A stretch of 64,000 nucleotides of DNA, from assembly GCF_018320785.1 (NCBI RefSeq), contig NC_054875.1:34823657-34887656 (forward strand), read 5' to 3'. This document shows, one piece after another, positions 1-63,504 of the stretch. This DNA is from Cheilinus undulatus (taxonomy: Eukaryota; Chordata; Actinopteri; Labriformes; Labridae). Position numbers and translations under genes: made by a program. The stretch's first letter is position 1. Each line of letters starts with the position of its first letter. The notes below the pieces were generated by a model that saw nothing but the letters and a program-made list of their open reading frames with translations, ran no database searches and was not told the origin of the DNA.

Positions 1-19893
<19,893 letters not shown>

Positions 19894-28049: not shown

Positions 28050-31000
28050 ATGCCCATATTTAACCGTCGACTCAACTTTTCAGAAAAGGTTGCCATTTTC
28101 GCCATACTACTTTCACTTTCGTTTCCATACATCAACATAAATCCCCTAGAGTTCCTGCAGAGGTGGGTCCCACCTGTGGAAGATGATGCACCACCCAACG
28201 GATCCACCCTCCAGACTTCTGACCCGTTAACAAACTGCACACAGGGTTTTTACACAGAGGAGGAGCTCGCGCCTCATATTCAAAGGCCTCTTGAAGATCC
28301 CTTAGCCCCCGGTGCTCATGGGAAACCGTTTGAGTGGAGGCCAATGACAACTGAAGAACTGAGGGAGGAATTATATGGCTATAATATAAATGGGTTCAAC
28401 CAGTTTGCCAGTGATCGAATCTCCCTGCACCGTGATGTGGGTGAAGACACACGACACCCAGAGTGAGCACACCCATTCTTCAGCTACCCAAACAAACCTT
28501 TAGCATGAGATTGTGAAGTTAGGGGAATTCAGATTGTGTTTACACTGCTTTTAACTTTCTGTTTCACTCTGACAGTTGCTTGGAGCAGAAGTTCTTCCGT
28601 TGTCCAGGCCTTCCTACCACAAGTGTGATCATCGTGTTTCATAACGAGGCCTGGTCCACTCTGCTGAGGACGGTCTACAGCGTCCTTCATACGGCGCCAG
28701 CAGCCCTCCTCAAAGAGATCATACTGGTGGATGATGCCAGCACTCATGGTTAGTGCTTCAGTACATGTAAAGACTGGTTAATGGGCAAGATATATTCACA
28801 ATTTACACCACTGAATCCTTAAACATCCCCATAGTCACTGTATACTTTTACATATGTATGGGTGGTGGGAGAGTGTCCACATAATTAGAGGTCAAAGCTA
28901 TGTCACTGATGTTTTTCCTCTGAAATGCACAGAAATAGAATATTTGGTACATTTTTCTTGTAAAAACATTACACCAGGGGTGTCAAACTCAATCACAGAA
29001 GGGGCCGGAACCTACGGGCTGGGTATATCTGTACCATGGGCTGGATTTGGCCTTGAGCTTGACCCCCTTGCGTTACACAATATACTGTGCTTGTCTCACC
29101 TAAATATTTTTTTTGTATTGTTATTCTCTGGATTGCAGGTTTTAGGACTACCAGGTGTCTCTATGTACCTGTAACAGTCATTTGGGGGGGGGGGGGCTTG
29201 AGTGTATTAATTATCACAAAGAACATCACATCCAAAATGATCTTAGGACTGATGGCTCAGTCCTAAAACTTCCCCACAACCAGATTCTTCTTCACTCAAA
29301 GCACTGACCATATCTGCTTACATTTTACAGTAATGAATGCATTTTTGTGCCTGTGGTTTCCATGTTGAAGATTGATCTATGACTTCTAATCAGGCAGTAC
29401 AGCAAAAGCAAGAAAGTGTTTCCATAAGATCTATTGTTTATATACTGGGGTGAAATAAAACAGGGAAAATGTGTGCTTAATTTGGGCTATATTTTACCTG
29501 ATGGTGGTTGTACTGCTAAAAGTAAATGGTCTTTTCTCTGTAACTACTAATACTTTACTATTCATTGTTGTCCATGTGGGCTGCTCTTCCTTTAGATCAT
29601 CTTCAGTCTCATCTTGATGAATATGTGCAGCACCTGAAAATAGTGCATGTTGTATGACAGAGGGAGTGGAAAGGCTTAATTCAAGCCCGACTGTTAGGAG
29701 CACAGCATGCCAAAGGAGATGTGCTCACTTTCCTGGATTCACACTGTATGTAACCCAATGCAGTACTTTTCATTATTTATTAAGGGTTCATATTGAAAGC
29801 CACATTCAGACAAAATAATGAATAAAGAATACATGCAGTACATTTCACCAGTAACCTTGCCACACCTCTGTGTGAATATTTCACTGTATAATACATGTTG
29901 CTTCATTCTCCTCACTTTCTGCATAGGTGAGTGCTTTCCTGGATGGCTGGAGCCTCTCCTAGCTCGGATAGCTGAGCAGCCTTCTGCTGTGGTGAGCCCA
30001 GTAATTCCCACAATTGACTATGATGACCTTGAGTTCATTAAGCCGGACCCATTAGAGCACAGTCGTGGGAATTTTAACTGGGAGCTAGAGTTTGGATGGG
30101 AGAATATTCCTGAAGAGGAGAGGAAGAGAAGAAAGAATGAGACGCATCCTTTCAGGTGGGGCTGTCACAGTACCAGCATTATAAACTTTCATTACATACT
30201 TGTAAAAAATTAATTATAGTGTTGAATGATATCACTACCTATCTTATATTAAGGTCTAACTAATAGAAAGAGACACCTAATAATGGCTTACACTGTAAAA
30301 AAAGATACACCATAACTAGTCAATAAAATTGAGGCAACAGATTGCACACAATATGTTTATCTAGATCTAGATATATTTTTTGTGTTGACTGAACTTAACA
30401 TTTTTAAGTAAACGCAGATGAATAATACAGATAAGTTTAACTTAATAATTTTGTGTAGAAGGTGCTAATTTTTTTAAGAAAAGCCAACTAAACCTAGGTT
30501 AACCAGACTCAAATGAATGGAGTTGAATTAACTCAATTTTATCAATTTTAGCAGTTGCACAAAAGAAATTTGCCTCAATTCCACATATGTTTTTTAAGTT
30601 GACTCAACTTATTATTTTTAAGTAATTCCAAATTAATTTACTTACAGTTTTAGCTCAACAAATTACATGTATATTTATCATCATAGGTAATTGCTTATCT
30701 TATAATGTTAAATAGTACTCAATGACAAAGGTTTTTTTATGTTATCATTTCACCCAAGGTGGATTAACTTACGTGATCATTTATAGCAATGATTGTTGGT
30801 GAACCACTGAACCAATAGCTTAAGTTTCACCAATGTCAATAGGCTATACAATGTTCATTAACAGTTACAACAGCAAAATTGCCCCCTATACGCGGGACCT
30901 CTTTAATTGAGAGGGCAACTTCACTCATGGTGCATTCTGTTTAATTATTTTATCTAACCCTTATTTAACCAGAAGAAAACCTCACTGAGATTAAAAATCT

Positions 31001-34000
31001 CTCTTTTAAGGGTGTCCTCACCAAGACAGTAGCAGCAAACTGCGTGCATACAGATTTAGTGCTCAAAGGCATTCTGGGAAAACTGCAGATTTGTCATAAC
31101 TTAAATAATTTGAGTAATAACCAAGTGTTAGCTACGTCTTGATATCTATGGCTATAACCTTATAAAAACAGCTATATGTGTTCAAAAAATACAGAAACTC
31201 ATTTAACTTCCTGACACAAGCTTCACCACCAAAAACAGTAAATCCCAAACGGGTGGGTAACTGCAGCACTGAAAATGTCCTTGGAAAAGTGTAAATCCCA
31301 ACCAGGAAAGAACAAAATGGCAGTTTCTCCCTGCACATGCTCAGACAGGGCAGTATATGGTCCTCATTTGAACACAGTTTTTTTTATGTTCCTGGTACAC
31401 ATTTAAATCAACTAGCCTGAACACATTTTTAAGATTACTTGTACATAATTACAATCACTTTAGTTGAACACAATTTTTTTTACATTATTTTAACACATTT
31501 CAAACCAACTTATTTGAACAAAGTTTTATTATGTTACTTTTACACAATTAAAATAAATTCATTTGAAATGGAGACAGCACATTTTGAAATTAGTCAAAAA
31601 ATATACGAAGGATTAAATTACACATTCAAATTAGTGAAACAAACTTAATAATTATATGTTATAAATACTAAGAGTCAAAATCTGTTTTTACAGTGTATTT
31701 CTAGTTTTCAGTTTTGAAAAGTTGTACTATTAAAGCTTAGATATTTTTCAATGTCATTAAAATTTGAGAGCTTTCCTGAAGAAAGTACACACCTGAGAGT
31801 TTCAGCTGGAATTCTTTGAGAGCACCATTATACATTTTACTGTGGTTGATTAACTAAATAAATGGGTGATATAGCCCAAGTAAGACAGCAAACAGCTTTC
31901 AAAAAATTTAAAAGAGAGAATAATATTATGAAAGGGAAAATTATTAAGTTAAAAAATACTTAAATCAGTCCTCAATTATAGACTACTGGTTGTAACTATT
32001 ACAGTACAAGCCATAACTGAAAGTTCTGTTATATGTCCACACGGTGGCGCTGTTCACAACGAAGACTTTTAGTTGCAGCCATGGCCTGTGGGTTTATTAT
32101 ATGATTTAACCTTATCTGAATTGTGATGATACACTTTTTGACAAAAAGTGAACAGATTCAGGGTATATTTTAGCATATTTAGGGCTAGAATCAAAGAGAG
32201 GAGTACTTAAAAAAAATCAGTCATTTCTGTGAGTGAAAGTTATGTGTCGTGTTTTGTAGAACTCCTACTATTTGTGGCGGGCTCTTCTCTGTATCCAAAT
32301 CGTTCTTTGAGCATATCGGGGCTTATGACGATGAGATGGTTTTCTGGGGAGGTGAGAATTTGGAGCTGTCCTTCAGGGTAAGGAGTTTTTCAGTCTTTCT
32401 CGTGACAGTGTTCACATAATTTCAACACTTTCAGTCTCATTTTGTACTGTGCCCTTCCTGTAAAGGTCTGGCAGTGTGGAGGTCAGCTTGAGATAATTCC
32501 TTGTTCAGTTGTGGGGCACATTTTCCGCAAAAATATCCCTCACAAATTCCCCAACGCCTTCTCTGTGATCAACCGTAACCTGGTGCGGCTTGCTGAGGTC
32601 TGGATGGACGACTACAAATGGATTGTCTATCGCAGAAATCTAGGGACAGCTGCCATTTTTTGGGGTGTAAGTAGGAATACTCAGCCACTATATTTATGAT
32701 GCCACATGAACTTACTGACTATATATTACTTTTCCTTTTGATTTTCCTCCAAGGATTCATTTGGCAATGTTACTGAGCGCCTTGATCTCAGGAAGAGATT
32801 AAACTGCAAGAGCTTCTCTTGGTACCTGAACAACATCTACCCAGAGGCCTACGTACCTGACATCATAACAGACAGAGAAGGACAGGTAGTTAACATCTGG
32901 AATGTATCAGACATTCAGACTCTATTAAACATCTACAAGTCATACTCCCTAACAACCTTTCAGAAACATTTGGTCTAATTGTAGACTTTTAAATTCAAAG
33001 ATGCAGTCAATACAAAGGTGGCATTAGTTGAAACTTCATGATAAGTAGATCTGGATGAATATTCTTCCAAGAATACAATCCCTTTCAGGACCCATGAGTC
33101 AAAATACCTTACGAGCCGTTTGTAGAATTGGGCAGACAAGACATACATGGAAAGACATGCGTGGTGAGGGAAAGGGCCAGGACTGAGTATATAACTCTAC
33201 AGTTAAGAAAGGAAAAGGTTGGAATAGGCCTTCTTTGCCTGTAAGAGTATTATTATGCAGCTTAACTGATCACCAATATTCTGTATACTGCAGGATGGAA
33301 GGATACAGAAGGCACAATAATAAAAGGAATGCCAAATAAAACCTTGATAGCGGATCGCAGACTGCAGAATGAACTGATGGTTTCAGATAATCCCATATTT
33401 GACATTCTTCTGAAATCCCTGCACTAAAAAGTTACAATTTACAGAATAGACAATCCATTAATCTTCTGAGGTGGTTTGCCTAAGATTCAGATTTGATGGC
33501 CCCAAGTAAAAATGATGAAAGATTTAGAAAATGGATCTCTAAAGGTTTAACTGACCACAATTTATTTATCCACAAGGGGGCATCCTAGAGATTTGAAACC
33601 CTAATGGTTGGGTGAAAAAGACTTTTGAAGACCTGTAAAAGCCAGGCAAATCATTACTTATCAGCACCTAAAAGAGGCTTCAGGAGAAAGTGAATCAGGG
33701 TTCCTATGAGCATTCCCATTGTTAGGCCCCAAAGATGTAATAAGAGATTTTTGTGACATCAGGGTAGTAGGGAGATGTGTTGGAGACTTTGTGGAACCAG
33801 TGGAGCTATTCGCATTCATATCCTCTGGCATTGCTAGGTTATTAGAACATATTAGGAAGAGATCCATAAACATTTTTATTTATTTAGTGGATTTATTTGA
33901 TAGAGACAGTGAAGATTACATGGGAAACAGGCTGTTACAAACAAGCTATAAGCAACTGATGTTTCACATATAAGGATTATTAGCTCTAGATGGGCTTTTT

Positions 34001-36991
34001 AGAAAATGAAAGAAGGTAAAAGGAAATATATCAAGTTTGCATAAAAATTACATAAAAATTGTTACAGATGTTTAAAAAAAATAAGAGTAAATGGTAAACA
34101 TTTACATCACAGTTACATAAAATTACAGCGGACATGGAGTAGGTAAAAATGCTAACATTTCTGATTCTGTTTCAGCCACCTTTTAACATATTTGTTTACA
34201 GTCTATATGTCTTGTGTTATTTCATTTCAGTTAAGTTGGTATTGCATTCCTTATTTGAGAGCCTCTTATAGAAAAAGCTGACTGTCCCAGGGTGGTCTTA
34301 CGATGGGCAGTTTTACAATTACCACTGGCTGTGCCCGTGCAGGTCCTACCATCAGTTTGCCTCATAAAAAGTTGACAAAATTTCCGTTACTAAGTTGTGT
34401 AAGCATTTCAAAACCAGTTTCAAACAGGAGAGTTTTATAAAACTATCAAAGCTGTGCAAATTATACTGCTTTAGTATGCGACAGTGGAGCCATCTCCTGG
34501 GTTTTTTAATCCATTGTTTTTAATATTTGGTTTTACAAAGCTGCAAAAGGCTTAATCATGGTTAACAAGGCTTGGCTGCACACTGTGACACGATACACGT
34601 GGCATACACATATATATACAGCTGTGTTGCTTTAATTAATACAGTGTCTTATTAATTTGAAACAGTTGACATTTCTTTTAACCATCTTTGCGACCTTTTT
34701 GATGGGTTTTTCAAATTTAAGTCTGGAGTCTAGAACCTCCCCTAAAAATTTAAAGTCATTAACCATCTCAATGTCTTCTCCCAGTACTGCTACTCTGGGT
34801 TTTACTGATTGTATTGTTTTTTTTACCCCTAAAGATTTATTTTTTGAGCCTTTATTGATAGAGGACAATAGATAGAGTCAGAAACAGGGATGAGAGAGTG
34901 GGGGAAAGGGCCACAGACCAGACTTGAACCCAGGCCACCAGTGTACACGGGGCGCGCCTTAAACCACTAGGCCATCTGCGTCCCTGTATTGTTTTTTTTT
35001 ATGTAAAAGCACATGGAGACTGTCTTTTTCATGTTCAAAGTGAGCTTATTTAGATCAAGCCACTTACATAACCCACTTATATATTAAGATAGTGTCTCAA
35101 TTGCCTCATTTGTGTCTTTGCTGAAGTGTAAAGGACTGTGTCATCAGCATAGAGCTGACAGCCAGCCCCCGGACAGCTTTCAGGCAGATCAGTGATAAAA
35201 AGGCTAAAAATCTATTGGCCTAATATTGAGCCTTGGGCCATCTTACTCTGTCGAAGGACAACATATGAAAACATTTCCTTTAAATGTGAAACTATGTACT
35301 TTTGTGATATATTATTTGAGAACTGAGAGATTGACAAGAAAAATGACTTTCTATACTGATGACAGCATTTAAAAAAAAACATCACAAAAAAATGATTAAA
35401 GGTGGAACCACCCAGACCCTGAGAGTGCAAAATGAAAAGTTTTGTAGGATCTGGACTAAATCAACTGAGTACATAAAACCTGCTTATTTTATCTAGTCTT
35501 TCTATGTATGAACTTTGACAACTCACGAAAAGTAATATGCTGTTTGTACATATGGTCCAGTAACTCAGGGATTTATGTAAAATGTTAAAAAGCACTTTGG
35601 ACAAAGACTCATAGACTTTGAGTAACTGTCCTTCACAATTTTCAATGGAGAAAATAACACAGGAGGGATCCAGGACATTTTTTGATGTTATAAGTCTTAT
35701 GTGCACTGGTAATAGGTAATAAAGAAAATTAAATACTACTAATAATACAAATTTAATAATAACATTATAATATGTTAATTCATAAAATAACTATTTTCCC
35801 CTGCAGTTGGAAAACTTTGAATGGGAATGCTACCTATATGCAGATACCACAGATAGAGACTGGATGCCTGTTCAGTGTGATGAAGACGAAGGACAGGTAT
35901 GCAAAATCAAATGGCTCTCAGTCAGAAGGTCAGAAAAGGGGGGGGGGGTCTGTGGGGTCACTGGTTAAAAGAAGACAGGATATTAAAGAAATATCACATT
36001 AGAGGGAGTTAAACTAAATATCAGCACTTCACAGTGAATTTGCAGAGTTAAAGTTACACTTAAAGAGTTACATTTAACACTATCTTTGCTTTACCAGTTC
36101 AACGAGTTCCTCATCTTACCTGAGATTCACCTTGCTTCAGGCAAGCTGAACATTCTCCCAAACACTGATCAGTTTGTATCCGTTGTAACCACAAAGCAGC
36201 TATCAAGTTTAGTGCACTTTTGTTGTATTTTTTACAGCAGCAAGTTAAATGAAGAGTCTGTATTAGGATTTGGACATACCAACTTGGTTAATCAGGACAA
36301 ACTGCTGGCTGTTAGGTTAACTCGATGTACTCAGAATACCTGGCTTTGGACTGGTGATACACATTGTGAAAAGTCACAGTGATGTTATGTTCTGTAACCG
36401 CACTCATTTGAGGCCTCTTGTCCAAATCCCCTGTCATATAAAGTTGTACATGCCATCATTTTGGATAAAAAGTTACATTATTGTGTTATTTATATATATA
36501 TAAAAAAGAAGTGCTATCACAGGCAATTCTTCCCCTGTCTTAAAGTACTGTCTCTGTGTTACCTGCAGTATTTTGAATACACATCCCAGCAAGAGATACG
36601 GGTCAGCGACACCACTGATTTGTGTTTGCATGTGACTCCTGTCTTGGGTATGGTGTCTCTTGAACCCTGCCAACTGAAGGGTAAAGGAACCAAAGCAGCA
36701 CCTGAGCAAGTGTGGATCTTCACAAAGGTATTCTATTGCTTCATTACCTCAGACTATAGAGCAATTGATGTTACAACACTTTCTCAAACGGCTCGGGGAA
36801 ATACTGACATTTCCTTTTCCTCATTCTTGTCACTCAACTTTTAAAGCCAGTTACATTGTTTTTTTTTCTTCTTTCAGACGGACCATCTGAGAAACCCACT
36901 TTCAGGAATGTGTTTGGCTGTCTCTGTTGAGGAGGTGTATGTGACCGCCTGTGAAGCAACCGATCTGAGCCAAAAATGGATCTTTTCATAA
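28050..36991 (+). CDS. galnt6: GALNT6-like polypeptide N-acetylgalactosaminyltransferase, with in-frame stop
   Basis: Golgi type II enzyme family that moves GalNAc from UDP-GalNAc to Ser/Thr, starting mucin-type O-glycans. Exons: 28050-28462, 28576-28748, 29596-29745, 29927-30155, 32260-32377, 32466-32666, 32754-32885, 35807-35896, 36569-36727, 36878-36991. All joins keep frame, giving 593 codons (human GALNT6 protein 622). ATG 28050 has A at -3 and is followed by a short cytosolic tail and a hydrophobic segment (residues 14-28). Landmarks are [23 protein letters not shown] (DxH metal motif), [18 protein letters not shown], and a C-terminal ricin-type lectin region ending QKWIF. GALNT6 over GALNT3 is favoured by [18 protein letters not shown] and FEHIGAYD. 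Codon 216 is TGA (29655-29657), before the DxH motif, so the gene may be a pseudogene, a null allele or contain a sequence error. Confidence 0.85.
28976..29110. repeat. dispersed repeat ('GGGGTGTCAAACTC' type)
   Basis: Starts CAGGGGTGTCAAACTCAATC followed by GGGGCCGGAACC and GGGCTGGATTTGG, a common fish interspersed repeat. The matching opposite end was not found, so this is a fragment. A G-run lies just beyond at 29184-29197. Confidence 0.55.
29655..29657 (+). other. galnt6: in-frame TGA in galnt6 exon 3
   Basis: The exon reads KIVHVV[19 protein letters not shown] where family members have VVRQ-ERKGLITARLLGA. The position is normally arginine, so a CGA to TGA change explains it. The rest of the exon and gene stays open. 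Confidence 0.85.
30289..31697. mobile_element. 1.4-kb non-autonomous element with CACTGTAAAAA termini
   Basis: The left end TACACTGTAAAAAAAGAT (30289) and right end ctgtttttacagtgta (to 31697) are inverted repeats of about 13 bp. The interior is AT-rich with repeated 'ttgaacacatttttttatgtt' and 'agttgactcaactt' motifs and no transposase. It fills most of the galnt6 intron 30156-32259. The target duplication was not resolved. Confidence 0.55.
32886..34329 (+). other. galnt6 intron segment, no recognised gene
   Basis: Left part of the 2.9-kb intron 32886-35806. It has an 84-codon plus-strand frame at 33719-33973 and an antisense one over it, neither matching a known family. It may be decayed retrotransposon sequence, but this is not supported. 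Confidence 0.4.
34330..35240 (-). mobile_element. non-LTR retrotransposon (L2/CR1/Rex-like) reverse-transcriptase fragment
   Basis: On the minus strand: MAQGSILGQ near 35210-35240 (family form PQGSILGP), LFITDLPES, then the catalytic [14 protein letters not shown] near 35130-35165. After a SINE insertion it continues as [20 protein letters not shown] and KKVAKMVKR. Stops and frame changes show it is dead. The right end (its 5' side) is truncated, as is usual for LINEs. Confidence 0.75.
34825..34986 (-). mobile_element. tRNA-derived SINE inserted in the LINE
   Basis: Minus strand: GGGACGCAGATGGCCTAGTGG (tRNA-like, box A TGGCCTAGTGG), box B-like GGTTCAAGTC, a CCCCCACTCTCTCATCCC body, then a CAATAAAGGCTC tail ending in A-rich sequence. 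The LINE sequence AAAAAAAACAATAC occurs on both sides (about 34811-34824 and 34984-34999), a target duplication from retrotransposition. Confidence 0.75.
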
Positions 36992-38307: not shown

Positions 38308-53745
<15,438 letters not shown>

Positions 53746-58645: not shown

Positions 58646-61600
58646 TTACATGTGCTCAGGATGGTTCTGCAAACAGCTTATGAACTCTGTGACTGGATGG
58701 CCCTGATAGCAGATCTGATACACTGCATTGAACAATGGAAACCTGGAGGGAGGAGTGTCGTGTTTAGTGAAAAAAAAAAATCATGCATTGTTTTAGTTTT
58801 ATTGTCTCATTTAGCGCTGCCGGTAACAACTCTTCAAAACTTACTTGTCAATTAGGTTTTTGTGCTTGAGGATGAGATAGACCTCAGCTGCTGTTGCTGG
58901 TCCCTGCAGCTTCTGACCGTTCAGCATCTCTTTCTCCAGCTCCTCAATGGACTGGGGAAGAGAAGACAGGTGACATAAATAAATTTTAACTTAACAAAAG
59001 AAAAAATGGTCCACACAATTAATTTACAAGCTCTTATTATTGACGTCAACAAAACCAATTCATTATGAAGGGCAGTAAATTATCTTTTCCATGGTGGATA
59101 TAGCATGCTCAGCCTAAACATGAACCTTTTCTGTTTGACTGCAGGATTATAGAAAAAAATATACTGGCCTGATTTTCATAAAATTTTTTAAAGAGTGAAC
59201 AGGCCTAGGAAAAACTTTAGAACTGTTTTTATGTTCTTATCTTGAACACCAAAGTACACACTGTCACATTTTGAAACAATGCTAGTGTGTTTGAAAACAG
59301 TGTGCACAAGTCTGCTATTCAGGAATTTACCTGATATTAGGTCCCTCTGACTTGTTTTGCTACTGTGGTATTGAACTAAGTTGAGCTATTATTTGATTTT
59401 TACTCATGAATTTTAAAATGCCAGTATCGTGACAGCTCTTGTAGTGTTCATGTATCTGCTCTGTAGCAAAGCTTATGAATCATCAGTCAGTGATTTTAGC
59501 ATTCATCAAGGGACACCTTCACAGTCACTTTTTCCTCAAACACACACCACTGATTTTGTCAACCAGCCAATGCAAACTATCAGCTTTGATTCAGGATCAA
59601 ACCAAGTAGGCTGTCAAAATTATAGGCAAAGTTACTTTAAAAATCAAAGCTCTCACCTTTCCCGTCTTCACAAAGGCTTCAGCTACTTTGCGATTACGGC
59701 CACCATAGCAGGTTGTGATCAGGTCTGCCACACCACAGCTTTCTAGGAAGGTTGCAGAGGACACGGGTCCAGCAGTGCAGAAGATGCGGGCAAATGCAAT
59801 CATCTCCATCAGACCCAACCTGATCACTGCTGCCTTTGTGTTGTCCCCAAAACCCAGGCCATCACAGAAACCCGCCCCAACTGCAACAATGTTCTGAAGG
59901 AGGGAAGAGGAGGACGATGTCAAGAAAGACCAGTGATACCTGAAGATACCTGGATGCTTTGGACAAGTATTGAAGCAAAGTTACTGCATTCATAGTCTGC
60001 CTAATGAACAAATTACTTCAATTTCACACTAAACTTTATAATGAACTACAGAACATGGACGAGTTTAGACCAACCCTTGTTGTATTGAGCTGAATAGTTG
60101 TCTTTTGTCTAATTCTTGAGGAGCAGCATGATTGTAGTATTTTCTTTTTTTAAATGTTTCATATATTGATATCTATGTTCCAATGTGCCATCCACTTAAT
60201 ATTTCAGCTGTAATTTGGTACACAGACATCAAGAGTAATTTATAACAATGAATATAAAAAATACTGAATACCAAAATATTTTGAGTATGCAAAAAGAAAA
60301 ATTTCTTACTGCTTTTTACTTACAGAATCATGAAAAAATATTCCTTCCCTAATACGCATGACAAATCAAATGTAAATAAAATTAGGTAACATGAGGATAC
60401 AAAGCAGACACAGTGTTTGGTCTTTATAACAAGAGACCAAAGAGTATGAGTCTAGACCTACCCTCTTTATACAAAAATAGACTGACAAAAATCCAAACAT
60501 AATTCTATTGAAATTTTTATGCTTTTTTTGGATATATGTCCAAAGTACAGATTTATAAATTATCAATATTAAGGAGCCATACTTCATATATTAGTCGATA
60601 ATCTTTTTTAATTGTATACCACCAAGGACTGTAAAATCTGATGTAGAAGATATACTATTAATACTGTTTTTTTGTTCATGTTGGCTGCATCCTATATTCC
60701 AGTGTGATTAATATAACACAATAAAATGCAAACATACAGTGCTTAACAAATTTATTAGACCACCTAAAGTAAAGTTTATGCCACAGTTGCCCTAAATTAA
60801 CAGCATTGGTAATTACCAAAATTATTTTTTATGTTTCTGCAATGGTTAATACACCAATATGTAGAAGCTCTTTAACCCAAATGATGTTTTTCATGCTAAA
60901 ATATAATTATTATTGTTATCCATGAATTTTCAAATTGACTGATTTACAAAAAAACTGAAAAAATAGTAAAGCACATTAATATTTCTTGATTTATCTGTTT
61001 ATTTACTTGCATTCCTGAACAGAAAAGTTAGTTTTAGTGGTTGAATGTTATGCTTGATTCATTTCTGACTTCTCAGAGAAGCCCAGTGAGCCGGCTCAAA
61101 TTTGGGTGAATTCAGTTTGAAATTCCTCATTCCTGTTCAAAATGGAAAAATGTGGAGAGCTGACTGAAAATGAAAGAGTTCGCATTAAAGCACTTCATGA
61201 AGCTGGATGGTCTCTGAGACAAATATGACAGGTGGTCTAATAAATTTGTTAAGCACTGTACATGCAGTTATGACTTTTAATGAAGCCACCAATATCATAT
61301 ATTGCACCTGACACTATTAAAAAAAACCCTCCCTTTTCTTTGTATATTGCAAGTAGCCACTTTCAGGGCTTTCAGTGTGCTGGCATGCATAGCTATGGAG
61401 ACCAGGCCAGCATCTGTTGGCACCATTTTTAAACATTTAAATAAAAACTGTGGTAATTTTATTTTATTTTTTCTATTTTTTGTCTTGTCTCTGATGATGT
61501 CTGTATTGTCTTGTTTGTGTTGTAGAAAATAAAAAAATAAAAAAAAATGGCAAAAAAACAAACTAACTGTGGTACACTGTTAAGCAAATAAACCTTGTGG

Positions 61601-63504
61601 AGTGCTGATGTGATTGCAAAGACTTAAGCTGTGGGTTATACTTCAACCATCACCATAGCCCGAGAGCTAAACCACCCTATCACAGTAACCTTGTAAACAA
61701 ACTCTACATGGTGAAAAGATATAATATTTGAAAGAACTACACAGCTGCAAAGAAACTGTGCATTGTAGACTTTGTTGAATACAATCAAAATAGTTTCAGA
61801 GGAAGGCATTTTAAATATAGGTTTCCCTTGTGGGAGAGCTCCATAATCAGACTTTGACTTAAATACTGGTGCAACTTTTTTCAGATTTTATGGTACTTTA
61901 CCTCCACATTAATGCATTTGGTCAGTTTGACTAGATAGGACAACAGAGATGGAATCTAAGCGCATTATTTGTGCACGGTTTAGTTTCCTACTGTATGTTG
62001 TGATACTTTCTCAGCCTTGATTAGACCCAGTATTTGATCTATCAGGTATATTTCTGTAGCATTCAACTGATGTTTGAAATTAAAGCTCACCTTCAAGGCC
62101 CCACAGATTTCCACCACATCATACTCCTCGACTACAGTCACTCTGAAGTTGTTTGTCTGCATAAGTTCCTTTAATAGAGCTCCATGGTTTTTATTCTTAC
62201 ATCCTGAAAATAGAAAATGTAACAGGTTATATTGTCCTTTTAATTTAAAGCATTTTTCATATTTAGAGTACAGCTGTACTGCTCCAAAGCCCTTAAACAA
62301 GTCACATTTATACAGCGCTGATCGTGCAAAACATAATCCTTTCAGGCACAGGTTAGAGTTCCCACAGTGCCATAACAGTAAATTCCATGAAGCATGTTGT
62401 TCACATCTAGTAAATGTCAAGCTGAACCAGCTCACTTTGTCATTTTCACAGCGACAGCAAGCTGATTAAACTTTCACCTCCATGCTGACAGTGCAGAAAG
62501 CTTTAGAACAGACTGAAACCAGACTTACACACTTCCTGATTCAAAGCCATAACTGCTTATTTTAATTTAAACAATCATTAAAGTTCAAGGTTTTGAAAGG
62601 CAAAATACAGTGAGCATGACACTAACCAATGGTGGTCTCACAAAACTTCTCATCAGCAACCTCATTGGCAATGTTGGCTCCCATCAGCACGCTCATAGTG
62701 ATACCAAGCTTCTCCTGGATCACATCAGAGATAAGTTTCAGCCCATCCGGCCCCTCATCCACACCCTGGAGGAACAAAGGATGCAGGTTTACATTAGGCT
62801 GCGGCCAGCTGGTATGTGGGGCAGGGATCACACTGCATAACTGGCTTACATATATTCTAGCAGACATGATTTAGCATCACACCTGGATCCAGAGAGAAAA
62901 GGTGAAAAACCCGTACAATTATGGCAATGCAGCACAAAGAGCAAAAGTCACACCTTGATAAGGGATATTCCAAGTGCTTCAGTCTTTATCTTCCCCTTTA
63001 TGGTGTCGCACACTCTCCCAACAAACTGATGTGGAATCACAAACACCAAAATGTCTGCGTCGCTAGCAGCTTCCACTAGATCTGGTACCGCCAGCTGTGG
63101 AGGGCGAGGACGATCGCGTAAGGGACAAATGTTTGCATGAGAACTGATTTAATGACATTCAGAAAACTATCGTTACATTCATACAAAAATCCCAACTGAA
63201 AGCTTTGAAAAAACAAGAATTGATGCATAAACATAGTATGGTGAGTCTGTACATCCAGTGTGTAAATGCCTCAAAAAGATTACCATTTTCATAAAAGTAA
63301 AGCCTGAAAAACCAACATTTTCTTACCACATTGGCTGGTAGCTTGTGCCCAGGAAGGTATTTCACATTTTCATGCTCAGCGTTAATAATTTCAGTCAGTT
63401 TGCGTCCGTTCACAGTCTCCTCAAACACCCACATTTTGACGGTGTTGTCGAATGTTGGCTTCTGAGCAGCATTGGCACCAACTATCTTGGCAATGGCAGA
63501 ACCC
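58646..63504 (-). CDS. gpd1: glycerol-3-phosphate dehydrogenase [NAD+], cytosolic (5' partial)
   Basis: Interconverts dihydroxyacetone phosphate and glycerol 3-phosphate with NADH/NAD+, linking glycolysis to lipid synthesis and the glycerophosphate shuttle. Exons in gene order: 63327-63504, 62954-63094, 62627-62765, 62091-62203, 59657-59893, 58845-58951, 58646-58742. All joins are in frame, giving 336 residues to the TAA. The missing first exon should encode about 14 residues ending in the GSGNW part of the NAD motif; the first base of the visible exon completes that codon. Key regions are [68 protein letters not shown] (catalytic lysine in GALK, split here by an intron), [13 protein letters not shown] and the end [12 protein letters not shown]1 fits better than GPD1L at [13 protein letters not shown]. 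Which teleost gpd1 paralogue it is was not determined. Confidence 0.95.
59894..62090 (-). other. gpd1 intron with a Tc1/mariner deletion derivative
   Basis: The largest visible gpd1 intron, 2.2 kb. It carries the 60737-61258 element. The rest is AT-rich with no recognised feature. Confidence 0.6.
60737..61258 (+). mobile_element. Tc1/mariner deletion derivative with exact terminal inverted repeats
   Basis: Both ends are exact reverse complements over about 30 bp (CAGTGCTTAACAAATTTATT and onward through AGACCACCT), flanked by TA on both sides. The interior keeps the start of a transposase, [20 protein letters not shown] followed by AGWSLRQI and a stop (61142-61228), which is the N-terminal helix-turn-helix of this class. 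The catalytic part is deleted, so it cannot move on its own. Confidence 0.85.

Follow-up and report, generated by a model that had tools for sequence, protein, structure and literature searches.

A premature stop codon in an otherwise open galnt6-like gene of the humphead wrasse, Cheilinus undulatus

The galnt6-like locus and its neighbors

The window analyzed in this study is a 64,000-nucleotide stretch of the Cheilinus undulatus reference assembly. It contains a gene for a polypeptide GalNAc-transferase, a member of the enzyme family that starts mucin-type O-glycans. We rebuilt this gene from the window as 10 exons on the + strand (28050 to 36991), separated by nine GT-AG introns, with a coding sequence of 1779 nt and 593 codons. 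Exon 1 (28050–28462) carries the start codon, membrane anchor, and stem, and matched residues 1–139 of the Notolabrus protein P0001 by tblastn. The same Notolabrus probe matched exon 2 (28576–28748); exon 3 (29596–29745); exon 4 (29927–30155); exon 5 (32260–32377), with the WGGEN motif at codon 351; exon 6 (32466–32666), with the VGHIFR motif at codon 377; exon 7 (32754–32885); exon 9 (36569–36727), which encodes part of the lectin domain; and exon 10 (36878–36991), which encodes lectin domain sequence and the natural stop. Exon 8 (35807–35896) contains a degenerate first lectin repeat; it gave no match with the Notolabrus probe at E 0.01 and was placed from the gene model and alignment to homologs.

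The joined exons contain two in-frame stops: the natural end at codon 593 and a TGA at codon 216 (29655–29657) within exon 3. Because base shuffles of the coding sequence contained a mean of 30.4 in-frame stops, the near-open frame is not due to chance. The start codon and all splice sites are intact, and the rebuilt gene shows neither a frameshift nor any further premature stop; the TGA is the sole disabling lesion, and the reference lacks a full-length open reading frame. The DxH motif, D243-S244-H245, is encoded later in exon 3, and both it and the WGGEN and VGHIFR motifs lie downstream of the TGA. A sequence-only reading of this DNA had described 10 exons, 593 codons, and a single TGA at codon 216 ahead of a DxH site at codons 243–245; the rebuilt gene agrees on each of these points.

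Two structural candidates were rejected. A duplicate or mutually exclusive exon 3 was set aside because the Notolabrus protein matched exon 3 once in the window by tblastn. A second genomic copy or haplotig was set aside because a DNA search of 1,173,462,691 bases in 46 contigs, in which very common words were skipped, found a single full-length place; the remaining 35 of the 36 places matched only query bases 1–136, an intronic repeat. Intron 2 holds a dispersed repeat at 29400–29535, with 35 further places in the genome at 73–87% identity.

Downstream of galnt6-like, tblastn with human probes located G6PD (39832–53742, + strand) and GPD1 (58649–63503, − strand). Coverage of G6PD extended over residues 5–515 except 161–162, and that of GPD1 over residues 15–349, with the first exon not found and the last piece running through an intron with stops. 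In the exonic parts of both genes matched by these probes, inspected by eye, there was no stop or frameshift; therefore, poor local base quality is unlikely. Upstream of galnt6-like, open reading frames at 2652–3113 and 16330–16944 (+ strand) resemble adenylate cyclase by eye, and those at 10689–11391 and 14171–14551 (both − strand) look like Tc1-type transposase fragments, also by eye.

Relationship to canonical galnt6

With the stop read through as X, homology to GalNAc-transferases spanned the catalytic and lectin domains. The homolog set comprised the 120 proteins listed of 7315 over threshold (down to 701 bits, with lengths 0.55–1.75 times the query), and within it the top matches were teleost galnt6-like proteins, the best being from the wrasse Notolabrus at 66%. 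The best-scoring listed relatives, such as Notolabrus P0001, Tautogolabrus P0013, and Halichoeres P0039, have the same order of exons and the same catalytic motifs as the gene in the window, with a likewise degenerate first lectin repeat, and differ from it in having no internal TGA at codon 216. In a tree of 25 rows, built from the gene in the window and 24 of the listed 120 proteins, the gene grouped with five labrid galnt6-like proteins in a six-row set with support of 100/98, whereas canonical galnt6 formed a separate clade of seven proteins with support of 100/100. Its end branch, at 0.51, was the longest in the tree. The solved relative 6s22, a polypeptide GalNAc-transferase, aligned in one piece (residues 61–591, E 6.5e-202); compared with canonical GALNT6/GALNT3, the gene falls in the other clade and its first lectin repeat is degenerate. 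Judged by these sequence affinities, the gene with the premature stop is the C. undulatus paralog galnt6-like, not canonical galnt6, and the name galnt6 given to it in the sequence-only reading has to be replaced.

Canonical galnt6 lies on the same scaffold (C11, at ~24.04 Mb), 10.8 Mb from galnt6-like, and the C. undulatus galnt6 protein P0127 is 100% identical to it over 85%. Another paralog, probably galnt3, lies on C15 at ~44.13 Mb. The exons of both look open by eye, as judged from tblastn pieces obtained with a Tautogolabrus galnt6 probe rather than from a formal gene model; some of these pieces contain stops in their intronic stretches, and a stop lies at the edge of one piece at the last exon of the C15 paralog. 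The galnt6-like gene is probably a redundant duplicate, redundancy with these paralogs being assumed.

At the column of codon 216, 119 of the 120 listed homologs have Arg and one (Pholidichthys, P0018) has His, which bears out the earlier expectation of Arg in relatives. It is plausible that the lost codon was CGA and that a C-to-T change at its CpG produced the TGA.

In exon 5 (32260–32377), codons 326–327 encode Ile-Cys instead of Phe-Ala before GGLF. None of the 120 listed homologs has Cys at position 327; 117 have Ala, and Val, Ile, and Thr occur once each.

Evolutionary rate and age of the stop

In matched sets of ten proteins, the end branch of the galnt6-like gene in the window was 0.49, compared with 0.20–0.35 in five other labrids, and that of C. 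undulatus canonical galnt6 was 0.09, compared with 0.06–0.12. Relative rates were examined by counting the unique changes in the gene in the window and in each labrid ortholog, with Dicentrarchus as the outgroup. The galnt6-like gene had more unique changes in all five comparisons, and the difference was significant in three: 77 to 38 against Notolabrus (p 0.0004), 61 to 31 against Tautogolabrus (p 0.002), and 63 to 37 against Semicossyphus (p 0.012). The counts were 57 to 46 against Xyrichtys (p 0.32) and 53 to 43 against Halichoeres (p 0.36). When two outgroups were used, six of 10 comparisons were significant, those with Halichoeres and Xyrichtys not being among them. None of the five relative-rate comparisons for C. 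undulatus canonical galnt6 was significant.

The positions of these changes were sorted by conservation classes set without the six labrids, C. undulatus galnt6, and P0059. The gene in the window had unique changes at six of 198 columns that were at least 97% conserved versus 82 of 275 variable columns, and the other five labrids had zero to four at conserved columns. In a leave-one-out analysis it deviated at seven of 195 conserved columns, second among 121 sequences; Echeneis (P0058) deviated most, at eight of 193. Sebastes (P0033), with no reported stop, had six unique changes at 199 conserved columns. Given the values for Sebastes and Echeneis, any loosening of constraint would not be peculiar to the galnt6-like gene in the window. 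On these alignments, the deviation at conserved columns is mild and unlike the pattern of an old pseudogene. Since galnt6-like is faster than its labrid orthologs, significantly so in three of five cases, its loss looks like the end of a period of loosened constraint and not like damage to a gene under tight constraint; positive selection, instead of loosened constraint, may also be the source of the rate excess.

The absence of any further lesion, whether a stop, a frameshift, or damage to a splice site or the start codon, allowed an upper bound to be placed on the neutral divergence since loss: 0.0095–0.0166 substitutions per site (95%). This bound assumes indel-to-substitution ratios of 0.05–0.15, that three-quarters of indels break the frame, and that the sequence has evolved neutrally since the stop arose. 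At neutral rates typical of vertebrates, it corresponds to no more than a few million years. Neutral change on the scale of this branch would have destroyed the frame, so most of the speed of galnt6-like would predate the stop. The earlier choice among a very recent change, a polymorphic null, and an error thus stands, with this bound attached.

Origin and consequences of the stop

An assembly or base-call error would mean that codon 216 specifies an amino acid in the sequenced individual and that the gene works. Several features fit an error: the lesion is a lone substitution, the rest of the frame being intact, conserved sites are largely kept, and the evidence comes from a single reference with one full-length place in its assembly. 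The exonic parts of G6PD and GPD1 and the exons of the two paralogs, clean or open as judged by eye, argue that base quality is not generally poor, and the branch of galnt6-like, longer than those of its labrid orthologs, also speaks against an error, which we consider unlikely. Splicing could instead avoid the stop and yield a shortened protein with another role. Exon 3 is 150 nt long with phase 1 on both sides, so that skipping it leaves an open frame of 542 amino acids, and six in-phase AGs after the stop in exon 3 would drop 26–41 codons if used as acceptors (candidates identified by AG and phase). Skipping would, however, remove the DxH motif. Moreover, no C. undulatus protein for the galnt6-like locus is among the 120 matches listed, although the database includes galnt6 of this species; over the lengths covered, 0.55–1.75 times the query, this is weak evidence that no rescued isoform has been annotated. 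We regard avoidance by splicing as very improbable.

Recoding of the TGA by read-through, selenocysteine, or RNA editing would explain the preserved downstream frame, but a very recent mutation accounts for it too. The context is TGA CAG and not the read-through motif, TGA CTA, and 119 of the 120 listed relatives carry Arg, not Cys, at this codon; we give recoding hardly any credence.

We think it likely that the TGA is a genuine, recent nonsense mutation or allele in a fast-evolving, probably redundant galnt6-like duplicate. As a general rule, a stop far upstream of the last exon junction leads to nonsense-mediated decay of the transcript. The TGA lies 1017 nt and seven junctions upstream of the last junction; therefore, decay is expected, and the galnt6-like transcript would be a target of this pathway. 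Any 215-residue product that was made would lack the DxH metal site and should be inactive. The TGA allele would then be a null, either newly fixed or still segregating, and could be tolerated because constraint on the duplicate had loosened and because galnt6 and the C15 paralog cover its function. On balance, we favor the view that the humphead wrasse is losing an already accelerating GalNAc-transferase paralog, by a null that is segregating or was fixed within approximately the last few million years, a figure that depends on the neutral rate used.

Recent pseudogenes and segregating nonsense alleles of duplicated genes are a familiar class, and galnt6-like resembles them in having one nonsense change, an intact remainder, and paralogs present. 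The event would be of this ordinary, already known kind, a newly arisen null in a duplicate that is probably redundant. If the interpretation is true, the locus offers a clean case of a duplicate glycosyltransferase gene at the point of loss, with paralogs and fast-evolving orthologs for comparison, and living populations could be used to follow what becomes of the allele and how it affects mucin-type glycosylation. It would also call for caution, in that a gene still present in other individuals of this endangered species may be absent from its reference gene set.

Wrasses are agastric. A link between the loss of galnt6-like and stomach loss was dropped, because galnt6-like is kept in Nothobranchius, Xiphophorus, and other labrids among the 120 listed proteins, the first two being genera that are counted, themselves or through their kin, as agastric in the available part of PMC10991444, and because neither "galnt" nor "mucin" was found in the available part of its main text. 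Literature on galnt6 in teleosts, zebrafish, and wrasses, on GalNAc-transferase paralogs, and on the humphead wrasse genome and pseudogenes contained nothing that pointed to this gene, as judged mainly by the openings of abstracts.

Among percomorph galnt6-like proteins, the first lectin repeat (exon 8, 35807–35896) is degenerate, varies strongly, and is often lysine-rich (aligned among P0001–P0063). In galnt6-like of salmon and pike it reads CLDV-GEKN-GG, and the annotated galnt6-like proteins P0004, P0013, P0040, and P0057 are without exon 8. From these alignments, it would appear to be a fast-decaying and perhaps optional carbohydrate-binding repeat across a whole fish clade.
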